Shown here: positions 187 through 4,279 of the stretch, piece by piece
Position numbering within the stretch: the stretch's first letter is position 1
How the letters are laid out: each line of letters begins with the position of its first letter
Origin: a virus
DNA: 25,869 bases
Virus record (IMG/VR): IMGVR_UViG_3300007538_000158
Location: 1 to 25,869 of that record
Strand: one strand, 5' to 3'
Notes under the pieces: model-generated
What the model saw: the letters and a program-made list of their open reading frames with translations, nothing else
Databases searched by the model: none
What the model was told of the DNA's origin: nothing
Program-made: the position numbers and the translations under genes

Positions 187-539
187 CACGTCCAGTTTTG
201 CTTGACTTCGTTGACGTAGCGAAAGAATGGGGAATGTCGCCCCAAGCGGTGCAGCGCGCCGCCGATAGGGTTGGGCTGACCGTCTACATGGGACGCAAGC
301 CAAAAATTCCAGAGGATGATTTGAAAAGGTTGATTGCATCATGCCAAGGCCAAGCAAAGGGGCGCGCCTCTACTGGCGAAAGCCCACAAAGACCCGCGCA
401 GGACAATGGGTTATCCTCGACGGGCAAACAGAGCGCAAAACAGGCACAGTTGATCGCGGAGAAGCTGACCAAGCGCTTGCCGACTACATCAACGCACGGG
501 GCATCAACCGTCACACCCATACGCCCGAAACTTTCCTAG
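183..539 (+). CDS. Excisionase-like helix-turn-helix protein overlapping the integrase gene
   Basis: The product has 118 residues from the ATG at 183, which overlaps the upstream stop. An in-frame start at 123 lies inside the previous gene and was not chosen. Residues 7-45 (DVAKEWGMSPQAVQRAADR, then a KIPEDDLKRLI segment) look like a winged-helix/MerR-like excisionase fold: a helix-turn-helix followed by a short wing ending in a D-L-x-R-L helix. The C-terminal half is Ser/Thr/Gln/Lys-rich and probably flexible. Its position directly ahead of int supports a directionality-factor role, but this is inference. The last 199 bases (341-539) are also the start of the integrase gene in another frame. 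Confidence 0.55.
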   Translation: MTRPVLLDFVDVAKEWGMSPQAVQRAADRVGLTVYMGRKPKIPEDDLKRLIASCQGQAKGRASTGESPQRPAQDNGLSSTGKQSAKQAQLIAEKLTKRLPTTSTHGASTVTPIRPKLS

Positions 540-1378
540 TGTCCGAGGCGCTGGTGGAGTACGGCGAGAACCGCGCGCCAAGCCGTGCCGCCCCAGAGCG
601 CATAGGCTACGCTATCAAGGCGTTGATGCCGTTTTGGCACGACTTGCCTGTTGGTGCCGTGACTATGGCCACATGCGCGCGCTATGCGTCTTACCGCGGC
701 AAGTCAGCCGGAACTGTCCGCCGTGAATTGGGCGTATTGCGTGCGGCGATGAATTGGTGCGTCAAGATTGGCGCATTGACGCGATGCCCCCCCGTTGAAT
801 TGCCAGCCCGCCCCGCGGCGAAAGAGTTATGGCTGACACGGGGCGAGGTTGCTAGGTTGATCCGCGCCGCCCGTACTGACCCGCGGTCAAAGCACCTTGC
901 CCGATTCATCCTATTGGCCGTGTATACGGGCAGCCGAAAGACCGCGGTATTGGATCTGCGCTTTGAACCGCACCCCCGCGGCGGCTGGATCGACTGCGAC
1001 CGCGGCGTCATGTACCGCGCTGCTAATGATGCAAGACTGACGAACAAGCGCAGAACGCCGGTAAGGATGCCTGCAAAGCTATTGGCCCATGCCCGCCGTT
1101 GGTCGCGCCAAGGTGGTTGGGTTGTCAATTACCGCGGCGCAAAGGTTGGAGACATCAAGACAGCATGGTCACGCATTCGACGCATTGCGGGATTGCCCGC
1201 GGCAACGCCCCACACGCTAAAACATACCGCGATTACATGGGCCATGCAGCGAGGGGCAAATCTGCCCGATGCCGCGGGTTTCTTTGGGACTTCGGTTCGC
1301 GTGATAGAAAAAACGTATTGGCACTATCACCCTGATTTTCAGGCGGGTACTGCGGCAATTATGGATAGGAAGGGATAA
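341..1378 (+). CDS. int: Phage tyrosine integrase
   Basis: This 345-residue site-specific recombinase should join the phage genome to the host tRNA-Arg locus 360 bases downstream. The N-terminal region resembles an arm-binding domain (about 1-55, GARLYWRK...GQWVILDG). A SAM-like core-binding domain follows (about 60-150), then the catalytic domain (about 165-345). Visible active-site residues are R199 (TGSRKTAVLDL), K in the LTNKRR segment, the H291-T-L-K294-H box, a Trp/His-rich stretch (W327, H328) and the nucleophile Y326 (IEKTYWHYHPDF). The second conserved arginine (HxxR) is a lysine here. The ATG at 341 was kept because the residues right after it match the usual N-terminus of this integrase family, although it lies deep inside the upstream gene. 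Confidence 0.93.
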   Translation: MPRPSKGARLYWRKPTKTRAGQWVILDGQTERKTGTVDRGEADQALADYINARGINRHTHTPETFLVSEALVEYGENRAPSRAAPERIGYAIKALMPFWHDLPVGAVTMATCARYASYRGKSAGTVRRELGVLRAAMNWCVKIGALTRCPPVELPARPAAKELWLTRGEVARLIRAARTDPRSKHLARFILLAVYTGSRKTAVLDLRFEPHPRGGWIDCDRGVMYRAANDARLTNKRRTPVRMPAKLLAHARRWSRQGGWVVNYRGAKVGDIKTAWSRIRRIAGLPAATPHTLKHTAITWAMQRGANLPDAAGFFGTSVRVIEKTYWHYHPDFQAGTAAIMDRKG

Positions 1379-1381
1379 GGC

Positions 1382-1666
1382 ATGGCTAAATTAGATTCAT
1401 ACGAAAAAAACATATGCGATGGAAACAAGCCGGGAAAGCTATTCTTGAAAGACTATGGCGATGGGGTTTGCGTCAATATGTGGATAATGGATTACGAATA
1501 TGACCCGATCCGCATTGCGTTCGGCATTGATGAGGAAATAACCATATTCCCCGGCGAAAATAAATGGGTAATGTTTGCACCGCATCAGCTTGAATACATC
1601 GCAGAGCGGGCAAAAAAGGCGGCGGCCATGGCCCAAAAATACTGCGATGAAAACCCAGAGGAATAG
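1382..1666 (+). CDS. Small acidic protein of unknown function between int and attP
   Basis: I do not recognise this 94-residue protein. It has no signal peptide or membrane segment. It has a central hydrophobic/aromatic beta-rich part (VCVNMWIMDYEYDPIRIAFGI) and an alanine/lysine-rich C-terminal helix (about residues 66-94). A good Shine-Dalgarno-like stretch (AGGAAGGGATAAGG) spans the integrase stop, so it is probably translated with int. The coding is visibly richer in A/T (aaa, ata, gat codons) than the head and tail genes, which suggests a later acquisition. A gene between int and its attachment site is not the simplest arrangement and marks it as a possible cargo gene. Confidence 0.6.
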   Translation: MAKLDSYEKNICDGNKPGKLFLKDYGDGVCVNMWIMDYEYDPIRIAFGIDEEITIFPGENKWVMFAPHQLEYIAERAKKAAAMAQKYCDENPEE

Positions 1667-1892
1667 GGGGTTTCTTGGCCGTATCTTGTCACGGCGAGAA
1701 CGGCCAAGGCGCAAAACGGCCTGCAAGTGATTGATTTGATTGGCGCACCCGACTGGATTCGAACCAGTGACCTCTGCCTTCGGAGGGCAGCGCTAGGCCG
1801 TTTGTTCACGCAATAACCCCGCTTTTCCCCTTGTTTGATCACGGTTGGCGGGTATCTAATGGCGGTCAATCTTGGCCGGACCAAGAAACCCC
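1667..1892. repeat. Paired 12-bp inverted repeats flanking the attachment core (candidate integrase arm sites)
   Basis: GGGGTTTCTTGG at 1667-1678 has a perfect inverted copy, CCAAGAAACCCC, at 1881-1892. The two enclose the tRNA-derived core (1741-1794) almost symmetrically. Within the same block CTTGGCCGT (1674-1682) pairs with ACGGCCAAG (1700-1708), and TCTTGGCC recurs at 1673-1680 and 1870-1877. Inverted arm sites on both sides of a core are what a lambda-type intasome uses. The assignment to integrase binding is inferred from position. The 9-bp hairpin at 1674-1708 could alternatively terminate the xis-int transcript, though no T-tract follows it. Confidence 0.55.
1741..1794 (-). other. 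attP: attP core: 3' half of a tRNA-Arg(CCG) gene
   Basis: On the minus strand this reads as the 3' part of a tRNA. It has the anticodon stem CTGCC/GGCAG with loop CTCCGAA (anticodon CCG, Arg). It then has the T-arm ACTGG-TTCGAAT-CCAGT, the 3' acceptor strand CGGGTGC, discriminator G and an encoded CCA (1741-1743). The sequence beyond 1794 does not give a D-arm or the 5' acceptor strand, so the tRNA is incomplete and not functional by itself. This is the classic core used by phage integrases that target tRNA 3' ends and restore the gene on insertion. Phage genes lie on both sides, which is why it is called attP and not attL or attR. Confidence 0.85.
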
Positions 1893-1924: not shown

Positions 1925-1973
1925 TATACGCAAAACGCAAATTAGTGCTTGATGCACATGCGCATTGCGTATA
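1925..1973. promoter_or_regulatory. 9-bp perfect inverted repeat TATACGCAA / TTGCGTATA (operator-like)
   Basis: TATACGCAA (1925-1933) and TTGCGTATA (1965-1973) form a perfect inverted repeat separated by 31 bases. The ACGCAA core is repeated at 1935-1940 and 1993-1998, and also at 1808-1813 on the other side. The block lies 43 to 91 bases ahead of the start at 2016, where a promoter for the small-gene operon is expected. A weak TTGATG (1949-1954) and TATAGG (1970-1975) pair with 15-base spacing overlaps it. It could be the operator of the helix-turn-helix protein at the end of the operon or a further integrase/excisionase element. Confidence 0.45.
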
Positions 1974-2015
1974 GGGTTGTCATAAGGAAACAACGCAACA
2001 CAAGGAAACAACACA

Positions 2016-2249
2016 ATGGCTCACCTTACCGAAGCGAAAATAATCGAAATGGCAGACGCCGCGCTGACCGCATACGAGTTCACTGGCGAAAAGCGCCGCA
2101 TGGGCGAAGTCGCTGCCGAGTATGCCGCCGATGAATTTGGGGTGAGTGCAACCGCAGCGCAGACTGGTTACGCCATCAAGCTGGCGCTGACCGGCTGGGA
2201 GGGCATCAAGGCCGCTACAAAGAAAGAGGTTGATGCGCAGTTCTCCTAA
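2016..2249 (+). CDS. Small acidic helical protein of unknown function, first gene of an attP-proximal operon
   Basis: The 77-residue product has no signal peptide, membrane segment or known motif. It is mostly helical by eye, with 12 acidic and 8 basic residues, and includes a GEKRRMGEVAAEYAADEF helix. A clear ribosome-binding site (AAGGA in CAAGGAAACAACACAATG) precedes the ATG, and the same AAGGAAACAAC sequence occurs once more just upstream. It is transcribed away from attP and against the late genes, as expected for a gene expressed separately from lysis and assembly. I cannot assign a function. Its size, charge and position beside a helix-turn-helix gene resemble phage anti-defence genes (inference). 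Confidence 0.65.
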   Translation: MAHLTEAKIIEMADAALTAYEFTGEKRRMGEVAAEYAADEFGVSATAAQTGYAIKLALTGWEGIKAATKKEVDAQFS

Positions 2250-2257
2250 CCTAACCG

Positions 2258-2273
2258 GGGGCTGCGGCCCCCA
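2258..2273 (+). other. GC hairpin after the first small gene
   Basis: GGGGGC (2258-2263) and GCCCCC (2268-2273) form a six-base all-GC stem with a TGCG loop, nine bases after the stop at 2249. No T-tract follows, so it is more likely a partial attenuator or transcript-end stabiliser than a full terminator. It would lower expression of the two downstream genes relative to the first. Confidence 0.4.
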
Positions 2274-2300
2274 CCACCCCACACAGCAAGGAATGCGGCA

Positions 2301-2456
2301 ATGACCAAGCAACAAATCCAAGACGCTATCACCGACCTAATGGAAGTGCGCCGCGAAATCTCAACAGTCAACCGCAACGCCGGGGAAACCATTTTTAACC
2401 CTGCTGCAACTGATGCGCTGCAAGCCGTGATTGAAATGTTGAAGGAGCAGGAATGA
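2301..2456 (+). CDS. 51-residue helical acidic protein, second gene of the small operon
   Basis: The reading frame from ATG 2301 encodes 51 residues beginning MTKQQIQDAITDLMEVRREI and ending in a helix with EMLKEQE. The ATG is preceded by a well-placed ribosome-binding site (AAGGA eight bases upstream), and the stop overlaps the next start (ATGA at 2453-2456). It carries nine acidic and five basic residues and looks like two amphipathic helices joined by a short GETIFNP turn. That suggests a small dimeric or partner-binding protein. No family is recognised. Coupling to the helix-turn-helix gene implies joint expression. Confidence 0.6.
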   Translation: MTKQQIQDAITDLMEVRREISTVNRNAGETIFNPAATDALQAVIEMLKEQE

Positions 2457-2665
2457 CCCCCGCGCAATTCCGCGAGGCGCTGCAATCGTTGCGCCTCGAC
2501 CAAGCCGCCGCCGTTAAGATGCTTGGCTACAAACGGCAGGCCAGCATAAGCGACCTTTGCACGGGCAAGCGCAACCCATCGGGCGCGACCGTGCGTCTGT
2601 TGCGGGCTTATTTGGATGGATACAGGCCGACCGACTGGCCAACGCAAAAAGCCCCCACCGATTAA
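2453..2665 (+). CDS. Small helix-turn-helix DNA-binding protein, last gene of the small operon
   Basis: The 70-residue product resembles the short XRE/Cro-like proteins of proteobacterial phages. It has an opening helix (TPAQFREALQSLRL), a helix-turn-helix at about residues 16-42 (DQAAAVKMLGYKRQASISDLCTGK) and a closing helix (GATVRLLRAYLDGY). A strong ribosome-binding site (AAGGAG) lies seven bases before the ATG, which overlaps the previous stop. Its most likely role is to bind DNA, perhaps auto-repressing its own operon at the inverted repeat 1925-1973 (inference). Its stop codon falls inside the loop of the terminator that follows. Confidence 0.65.
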   Translation: MTPAQFREALQSLRLDQAAAVKMLGYKRQASISDLCTGKRNPSGATVRLLRAYLDGYRPTDWPTQKAPTD

Positions 2666-2678
2666 GGCAGGGGCTTTT
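2647..2678. terminator. Bidirectional rho-independent terminator between convergent operons
   Basis: AAAAGCCCC (2647-2655) pairs with GGGGCTTTT (2670-2678) around a 14-base loop. The plus-strand side continues into CATTTTT, and the minus-strand side has five T residues. It therefore serves both the small-gene operon coming from the left and the late operon coming from the right, and it separates the two transcription units. Confidence 0.85.
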
Positions 2679-3018: not shown

Positions 3019-3146
3019 AGTGCCTTTCTCATTTGTGCGATTAGGTCGAAAATCAGGATTGCAAATTTTGCGTAGGGAATGACCCCAAGCAATTCATGGC
3101 CGCGATACAGTTGCAGCCCTTCGGCGTTGACGTGCCAAGTAATCAA
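3015..3146 (-). CDS. 43-residue hydrophobic/aromatic small protein, TTG start
   Basis: A short frame lies in the gap between the phosphoesterase and the exported protein. It begins at TTG 3146 (overlapping the upstream stop, TTGA) and reads LITWHVNAEGLQLYRGHELL... to QMRKAL. The stop overlaps the next ATG. The frame stays open upstream to 3257, but that part lies inside the phosphoesterase gene. The residues (GLQLYRGHELLGVIPYAKFAILIFDLI) look like a compact beta-beta-helix domain, not random sequence. There is no strong ribosome-binding site, so translation would depend on coupling. Function unknown. Confidence 0.45.
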   Translation of the reverse strand: MITWHVNAEGLQLYRGHELLGVIPYAKFAILIFDLIAQMRKAL

Positions 3147-4279
3147 AACCGCACCGTCATGTCGTGCTTTAGCCCTGCCCGTTCGCAGAACATCATTGCG
3201 CGCATTGCCGCCGTATCGGTGTAACCCATATCGGCAGAGTGTTGATCCATTGAGCAAATCGCGGGAAGCTGAAACCAGCTAAACGCCCCATAGGTTTCTT
3301 GGCGTGGGTTGTGCAAATGGCCAGTGAACAGATACCAAAACCGACTTGCGCCGAATTGATCTGGAAAGTTTGGCGGGATATTCGCGGCCAGCTTTTCGGG
3401 CTTTATCCCGTGTCCATGATGCGCGGCAAGGAATACAGCGCCTTTTTGAAACACCCACATTTCACGCTCGGACTGGTCAATCGTCACGCGGGGATCGTTA
3501 TGGTATCTGTGATGCAAGGCAAGCCCAACGGCGTCCGGTGTGTTTGGGTCATGGTTGCCGCGATTGCTGCGATATATTACGCGCTCACTTCTCTGCAATG
3601 CCATGTCAATCTGCCAAGCCTTTGCCGCGGCTGATAACGCTAGATTGCGCCGATGTGACCCCGTGACCTTTAGCCTATGATCTGACCGCGGCGTTGCATC
3701 CTTATCGCAGTTCGCGTGGGTTAAGTCGCCATTGTCCAGAATGATTGCAGTCTCGCATGGTGGGATTGCCGCATGTGTTTGCGAAAACCCGTCTTTCATC
3801 CGTTCCATCGCTATATCTGGGCTGTAATCGGTGCCGCCGCGGTCGCTTGTGATTTCAACACCCAAATGCACGTCAGATTGTGGGAAAAATGCAATCTTGC
3901 CTGCTTGGGAATGTTCGCTTTGAATGATTGGTGGTGCCGCGGGAATATCTGAAAACGCCGCCCGCATCAGATCAAGTACGTTGGCTTGGTCGTCATTGCC
4001 CTTTTGTGAATACCGCGTTGACCGCTTAACTAGCTTGCCCTCGGCGTCCGTGATAATCCACCCGCCGTCTATTGTGCAGCCGTCAAGATTGGCGGCGACC
4101 ATGCTTTCCTGCATCCCATTTGGCAGGTGGAAGCCCTTCGCCTTTGCCGCGTTGTGCCGGTTGCGTAGCGTTTCGAGCGGCATCCCGACAGCCCGCGACG
4201 CCGCGCCCACGTTGCCATGCTCTTTGACCAGAGCGACAGCCTCGCGCATCTTTTCTTCGCTCAATCTGGGGTTAGCCAT
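3143..4279 (-). CDS. Metallophosphoesterase with an N-terminal helix-turn-helix
   Basis: The 378-residue product has two parts. Residues 1-50 form a Psq/resolvase-like helix-turn-helix (LSEEKMREAVALVKE...NVGAASRAVGMPLETLRNR). Residues 125-370 form a calcineurin-like phosphoesterase. The metal-binding motifs are in order: D136-x-H138, G184-D185, the G241-N-H-D244 box, H288/H290 and G320-H-L-H323, so the site looks intact and able to bind two metals. Such enzymes cleave phosphomonoesters or phosphodiesters of proteins, nucleotides or DNA; the substrate is not visible. It sits in the late operon between the outer spanin and small exported genes, sharing TAATG with the former. The DNA-binding domain points to a nucleic-acid substrate (inference). 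Confidence 0.85.
   Translation of the reverse strand: MANPRLSEEKMREAVALVKEHGNVGAASRAVGMPLETLRNRHNAAKAKGFHLPNGMQESMVAANLDGCTIDGGWIITDAEGKLVKRSTRYSQKGNDDQANVLDLMRAAFSDIPAAPPIIQSEHSQAGKIAFFPQSDVHLGVEITSDRGGTDYSPDIAMERMKDGFSQTHAAIPPCETAIILDNGDLTHANCDKDATPRSDHRLKVTGSHRRNLALSAAAKAWQIDMALQRSERVIYRSNRGNHDPNTPDAVGLALHHRYHNDPRVTIDQSEREMWVFQKGAVFLAAHHGHGIKPEKLAANIPPNFPDQFGASRFWYLFTGHLHNPRQETYGAFSWFQLPAICSMDQHSADMGYTDTAAMRAMMFCERAGLKHDMTVRF

Follow-up and report, generated by a model that had tools for sequence, protein, structure and literature searches.

Gene content and setting of the operon

The stretch of DNA analyzed here (hereafter the window) is the IMG/VR record G000, 25,869 bases long. Its minus strand carries phage late genes, namely terminase, portal, a protease-capsid fusion, tape measure and tail genes, with an endolysin and an exonuclease-like gene toward the end of the unit, which is reached at 2734. 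Convergent with this end, on the opposite strand, lie three small ORFs of the lengths given by the original prediction, all of which are also picked by a codon-usage gene caller (Table 1). They stand between a probable attachment site and the late-gene end, and the prediction's picture of a separate unit adjoining attP, transcribed against the late genes and closed by a strong terminator, agrees with what we find. The end of the P0003 gene runs into the terminator hairpin, which can serve both converging units. The description of the three genes as coupled was slightly generous, because only P0002 and P0003 overlap (ATGA, 4 nt), P0001 and P0002 being 51 nt apart. The first two proteins are acidic, as had been noted. 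Ahead of the first gene, an 18-nt tandem duplication at 1981-2016 (CATAAGGAAACAACGCAA / CACAAGGAAACAACACAA) yields two Shine-Dalgarno-like AAGGA words.

Table 1. Features of the operon, its leader and the flanking integration module
Feature	Positions	Strand	Evidence and remarks
Tyrosine integrase	341..1378	+	phrog_1 6e-34, PF00589 2.7e-8; marks the integration module
3' part of tRNA-Arg(CCG) gene, probable attP core	1752..1795	-	Rfam tRNA, E 0.0022
Left boundary of cargo slot, conserved	1783..1889		92% identity with sister phage L012
O2, putative distal operator TACGCAAAACGCA (reverse complement TGCGTTTTGCGTA)	1927..1939	-	inverted copy of O1 with 2 mismatches
Possible -35, TTGATG	1949..1954	+	read from sequence; 15-bp spacer to -10; weaker than in relatives
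O1, putative proximal operator TGCGCATTGCGTA	1959..1971	+	overlaps the TA of the -10
Possible -10, TATAGG	1970..1975	+	read from sequence; position as in relatives
Cargo 1 (P0001), 77 aa, pI 4.84	2016..2249	+	predicted four-helix protein; homologs in L001 and L002
Cargo 2 (P0002), 51 aa, pI 4.55	2301..2456	+	predicted two-helix protein; no homolog found
HTH_3 regulator (P0003), 70 aa, pI 9.89	2453..2665	+	PF01381 3.1e-5, phrog_14076 2.1e-16
Right boundary of cargo slot, conserved	2639..2676		95% identity with L012
Terminator hairpin	2647..2678		9-bp stem, -17.5 kcal/mol, z -3.4

The Rfam match that marks the probable attP, next to the integrase, is truncated (model positions 8-63 of 71) and scores below the gathering threshold; the visible tRNA similarity extends over about 1741-1797, and its anticodon loop, CTCCGAA, read from the sequence, identifies a tRNA-Arg(CCG). 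Repeated words of the CTTGGCCG type (1667-1708 and 1870-1892) and, in the same two segments, a perfect 12-nt inverted repeat (GGGGTTTCTTGG / CCAAGAAACCCC) flank the tRNA fragment and are possibly the integrase arm sites of attP.

The sister phage contig L012, whose exonuclease is 87% identical to that of the window, has the same slot boundaries filled with other cargo, namely a short ORF of hydrophobic character and a second one of 85 aa that encodes no HTH protein (read from sequence); hence the operon sits in a slot with fixed borders and exchanged content. The right boundary encodes the final residues of the last gene, TQKAPTD in the window and TQKAPAD in L012. L012 (also read from sequence) has another integrase, encoded on the opposite strand, and in L012:2931-4113 it accompanies late genes and slot borders that are kept, so that by sequence comparison the two phages differ by an exchange of the whole integration module. 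A 94-aa ORF without family match occupies the integrase-attP interval of the window (1382-1666), and near the corresponding place in L012 stands a 77-aa ORF; since the two are unrelated, this may be another exchangeable spot.

The whole window gave 0 megablast matches among phage records, thus no near relative in the phage collection, and a search with its integrase likewise recovered no relatives. The exonuclease gave 0 matches when aligned against bacterial genomes, so that no cultured prophage of the window's kind was found. A phosphoesterase/exonuclease-like gene (phrog_704) lies at 3143-4279, within the late unit and close to the lysis genes, and nearly 2,000 phage records hold relatives of it. 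Because the relatives of the window's genes point to phages of Rhodobacterales or Paracoccus, the host of the phage probably belongs to that group.

The P0003 family and its operators

That the third protein binds DNA, as originally proposed, is supported by its family assignments to HTH_3 (24.4 bits, against a gathering score of 23) and to PHROG 14076, a group of small phage transcriptional regulators of which P0003 is a member by profile; unlike the P0003 locus, the PHROG entry comes without operon context or operator. Relatives of P0003, recovered from IMG/VR contigs, from phages of Ruegeria, Rhizobium, Paracoccus and Aeromonas, and from Pannonibacter and Tritonibacter plasmids, share the pattern MTPxEIRxARxxLGLTQ...RLLRAYLDGYRPxDWP. 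Judged by these sequences the family is one of small regulators mostly from alphaproteobacterial phages, and P0003 is among its more divergent members. We compiled 20 non-redundant loci, leaving out near copies (L025, L026, L032, L033) and two contigs with doubtful or larger HTH proteins (L039, L040). In all of them the HTH gene directly follows one to three small genes; the distance to the small gene is within 20 nt in 17 of the 20, and 8, the window included, have an overlap of exactly 4 nt. Apart from one clear pair (L023/L028), the small partner genes are unrelated between loci. In L020, L022, L036 and Paracoccus phage Pkon1 the genes form separate cassettes that run opposite to the late genes, that of Pkon1 lying between amidase and holin, and in a Pannonibacter plasmid prophage the cassette lies among baseplate genes. 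Other members are found in early operons, for example in Rhizobium phage 16-3 and Ruegeria phages.

In the leader of the window's operon the original prediction had pointed to an inverted repeat. The repeat is real (1925-1939/1959-1973): its arms pair at 13 of 15 positions, for which dinucleotide-shuffled versions of the 126-nt leader give p ~0.01. It is better read as two copies of an operator; we dropped the single long dyad because four relatives carry the same operator pair. O1 and O2 depart from the form TACGC-N3-GCGTA at one and two positions, respectively, and their centers lie 32 bp apart, at -51 and -83 relative to the start codon. Sites with up to two mismatches are expected at a frequency of 0.06 per 150 nt, and O1 is the sole match with up to one mismatch on the plus strand of the 25.9-kb window. 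In L020, L021, L022 and L027 the double operators are spaced at 33-34 bp, and the proximal one is centered 47-55 nt before the start codon. The two sites are probable binding sites of P0003. The window's own promoter is not clean: besides the short spacer, an automatic scan prefers an upstream promoter, TTCGTA-N17-TAAAAT with its -10 at about 1917-1922, which scores above the one linked to O1.

Most leaders of the family display a good sigma-70-type promoter in which the right end of a dyad forms the TA of the -10, as in L035 (TTGACA-C-TAGGGGCCACTGCCCC-TATATT) and L041 (TTGACA-AC-TAGCGCCATTGGCGC-TAAATC). When the promoter was picked by score alone, a dyad with up to one mismatch abutted the -10 in 12 of 19 leaders. 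Among promoter-like control sites drawn randomly within these loci the share was 4.5% (p 3e-12), and of the intergenic control leaders 6 of 61 had such a dyad (Fisher p 8e-6). The count is to be read with the fact that the motif was first noticed by eye in these leaders and that the loci have the HTH family in common. The window is absent from the 12 because the scan preferred its other promoter; with O1 taken by hand its leader, too, has a one-mismatch dyad. This test, anchored on the -10, replaced an earlier one for palindromes inside the spacer with shuffled bases, which had given a weak result, with a combined p of 0.0015 and few leaders reaching significance by themselves. Further, similarity within the HTH region tracks similarity of the operator half-sites (Mantel r 0.28, p 0.007), whereas similarity outside the HTH does not covary with it (p 0.53); without the window and L021 the values are p 0.02 inside and 0.24 outside. 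This covariation supports the view that each HTH protein of the family reads the dyad in its own leader.

Some leaders also contain hairpins in their 5' part. In L035 and L042 a GGGGC-N5-GCCCC hairpin repeats the half-sites of the upstream DNA operator (TAGGGGC/GCCCCTA), and similar hairpins occur at -30 to -36 in several leaders. Control at the RNA level, at which such hairpins might have hinted, was set aside, as leader hairpins near the ribosome site are not enriched as a class (13 of 20 versus 30 of 66, p 0.10).

Affinities with known Aca systems and nature of the cargo

A single-sequence search of the PDB with P0003 gave 0 matches. With the family profile, the best natural PDB match is Aca3 of Neisseria (9vt3; 30 bits, 4e-6), an HTH_3 regulator of 70-76 aa and hence of the size class of P0003, associated with type II-C Acrs. 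The alignment covers the HTH part alone, and the C-terminal RAYLDGYRPxDWP of the P0003 family lies outside the match. Aca3 represses its own acr-aca promoter (PMC9410906). By sequence P0003 appears to be distantly related to Aca3 and not closely allied to any named Aca family.

In the host group, the nearest case that has been worked out is that of Rhodobacter phage RcapNL. Its AcrIC9 protein is an inhibitor of type I-C CRISPR-Cas, and the acrIC9 directon has three genes, the second a distant Aca3 homolog (Gussow et al. 2020, PMC7391736). Like the window's operon, this one (AFA44873-AFA44871, JQ066768) is short, lies on the integrase strand between the integrase and the late-gene end, and begins with a gene for a small acidic protein, of 79 aa as against 77 (the published 79 residues are obtained by extending the gene to an upstream ATG, METK...). 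Its HTH protein matches the P0003 family profile with 38 bits, which by our own conversion corresponds to E ~1e-8 when scaled to the PDB-set search, and its leader contains GTGCG-N5-CGCAC twice, 35 bp apart (32 bp in the window), with the proximal copy ending at the -10. The two operons differ in operator sequence (TGCG-N5-CGCA versus TACGC-N3-GCGTA) and in gene order, the HTH gene being second of three in RcapNL and last in the window; in a direct comparison the HTH proteins are distant (43% over 28 aa), and P0001 and P0002 gave no blastp match to AcrIC9 up to E 10.

In the described Aca families a small HTH gene is located downstream of small cargo in a mobile element, and the core promoter contains a dyad, frequently accompanied by another like it, as at the P0003 locus (Shehreen et al. 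2022, PMC9410906; AcaFinder, PMC9765179). Examined against the features by which Acas are recognized, the window's operon showed that: 1) P0003 lies well within the limit for a small HTH protein (<150 aa). 2) The HTH gene stands downstream of small cargo in a short operon of a mobile element. 3) There is an inverted repeat in the probable core promoter, as O1 overlaps the probable -10, with O2 upstream, subject to the 15-bp spacer and the rival promoter noted above. 4) The regulator is related, distantly, to known Acas, namely Aca3 and the RcapNL HTH protein. Unlike the described families, P0003 does not adjoin a known Acr family. The likeness of arrangement to acr-aca operons that was initially proposed is supported by a conserved HTH gene behind mostly unrelated small genes, dyads inside or abutting the core promoter, covariation of HTH and operator, distant links to Aca3 and the RcapNL protein, and a location between integrase and late genes that is shared with RcapNL. 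Most Acr discoveries were made by association, through a conserved regulator with changing small partners (PMC9765179), and the roughly 20 loci of the P0003 family show such a pattern.

The impression that the first two proteins are unlike known families also stood up, as neither gave a credible match in Pfam, NCBIfam, PHROG or PADLOC (best E 0.027 and 0.14). Most Acrs are themselves without a Pfam, NCBIfam or PHROG model. P0001 has two homologs (75-76% identity), both in viral contigs (L001 and L002), rather than mainly in the housekeeping contexts that the original prediction had held to speak against an anti-defence role; none was found in phages, plasmids or bacterial genomes, and P0002 has none in viral contigs or phages. 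In L001 and L002 the HTH gene is absent and the neighbors look like replication genes (VRR-NUC-like and helicase-like ORFs, read from sequence). The structure predictions called for earlier give four helices for P0001 (best model pLDDT 93.5, the five models ranging from 48 to 93) and two for P0002 (pLDDT 82). A Foldseek search of the PDB with the P0001 model returned nothing of note (best E 2.9) and a second fold search a best Z of 5.7, within the expectation for helical bundles; the fold aligns with two viral proteins of unknown function (E 0.002 and 0.01; TM 0.75 and 0.72).

Hardly any of the 26 cargo proteins of the family could be assigned to a known family, the matches being to ribosome modulation factor (RMF; 7e-5), DUF6900 and, weakly, YccJ, in one member each; cargo resembling RMF is located at L021:1371-1544 and L034:3738-3986, the assignment of the RMF match being our own. 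The Pkon1 cargo protein has 62 aa and is hydrophobic in a segment at its C-terminus. As the relatives include an RMF-like protein and a membrane protein among their products, the cargo of the family is not uniformly directed against defence.

Function of the operon

The above observations are best explained if the three genes are a phage cargo operon of acr-aca design with its own auto-repressor, the cargo most likely blocking a host defence, a reading that we consider probable. A housekeeping-type promoter would drive two small accessory proteins and, last, P0003, which in turn would bind both O1, overlapping the core promoter, and O2, located 32 bp farther upstream. Other Aca systems show strong expression on entry followed by shut-off (PMC9410906); by analogy, binding of P0003 would shut the operon off after a burst of expression on phage entry, and P0003 would presumably keep it low in the lysogen, while P0001 and P0002 may block a host defence. 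The parts of this proposal differ in strength: repression of the operon by P0003 is very likely, action of the cargo against some defence has a little short of an even chance, and action against CRISPR-Cas in particular is doubtful. P0001 and P0002 are nonetheless good candidate defence inhibitors, because the proven anti-CRISPR operon of RcapNL shares both design and position with theirs.

The same architecture might serve lysogenic conversion, with an auto-regulated cargo that benefits lysogen or infection by other means, such as superinfection exclusion or control of ribosomes or metabolism. The RMF-like and DUF6900 proteins among the relatives' cargo, the hydrophobic segment of the Pkon1 protein encoded between amidase and holin, and the homologs of P0001 among replication-region genes are all in keeping with this; yet in RcapNL the slot holds a proven Acr, and P0001 and P0002 showed neither a membrane segment nor an enzyme motif, so that we regard lysogenic conversion as rather unlikely for the window. 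Another explanation would make the HTH protein the antitoxin and auto-repressor of a toxin-first type II toxin-antitoxin system. HigBA and MqsRA have the same gene order, 4-nt overlap and auto-regulation, and the HTH of P0003 resembles the DNA-binding domains of MqsA and HigA, a likeness to MqsA/HigA-type antitoxins that has also been noted for known Acas (PMC9410906). Antitoxins are specific, however, whereas almost every partner of the P0003 family is a different protein; no toxin family was found among the 26 cargo proteins, P0001 and P0002 included, and the P0001 homologs of L001 and L002 do without an HTH gene. A toxin-antitoxin system is on these grounds highly improbable.

Nor do we favor a developmental role for P0003, as a Cro- or cII-like switch accompanied by small early genes with no accessory function. 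The family members in early operons fit such a role, but the window's operon has its own leader and terminator and adjoins attP at the late-gene end, and comparable isolated cassettes face the late genes in L020, L022, L036 and Pkon1. In addition, no site in the 25.9-kb window matches the operator better than the one in the operon's own leader, with the qualification that the rest of the early region, where sites for action in trans may lie, is outside the contig. We accordingly give the developmental switch little chance.

Returning to the acr-aca design, the locus is probably an exchangeable cargo operon with an Aca3-like, auto-repressing regulator; as far as its organization tells, it works like an acr-aca operon, and whether it is one depends on the action of the cargo. 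To our knowledge only a few anti-CRISPR proteins have come from phages of alphaproteobacteria, a class that includes abundant marine bacteria, AcrIC9 being among them. The regulator family together with its operator provides a handle at the sequence level that works without resemblance to known inhibitors, and the approximately 20 loci collected with it lead to about 25 small proteins, most of them of unknown function. If some of these are defence inhibitors, the handle is a productive search key. We put forward only tentatively the further proposal that P0001 and P0002 represent two new families of defence inhibitors, and that regulators of the P0003 type with their operator code mark a large, unexplored set of anti-defence cassettes in alphaproteobacterial phages; if it is true, a search by regulator and operator would find dozens of new inhibitors.
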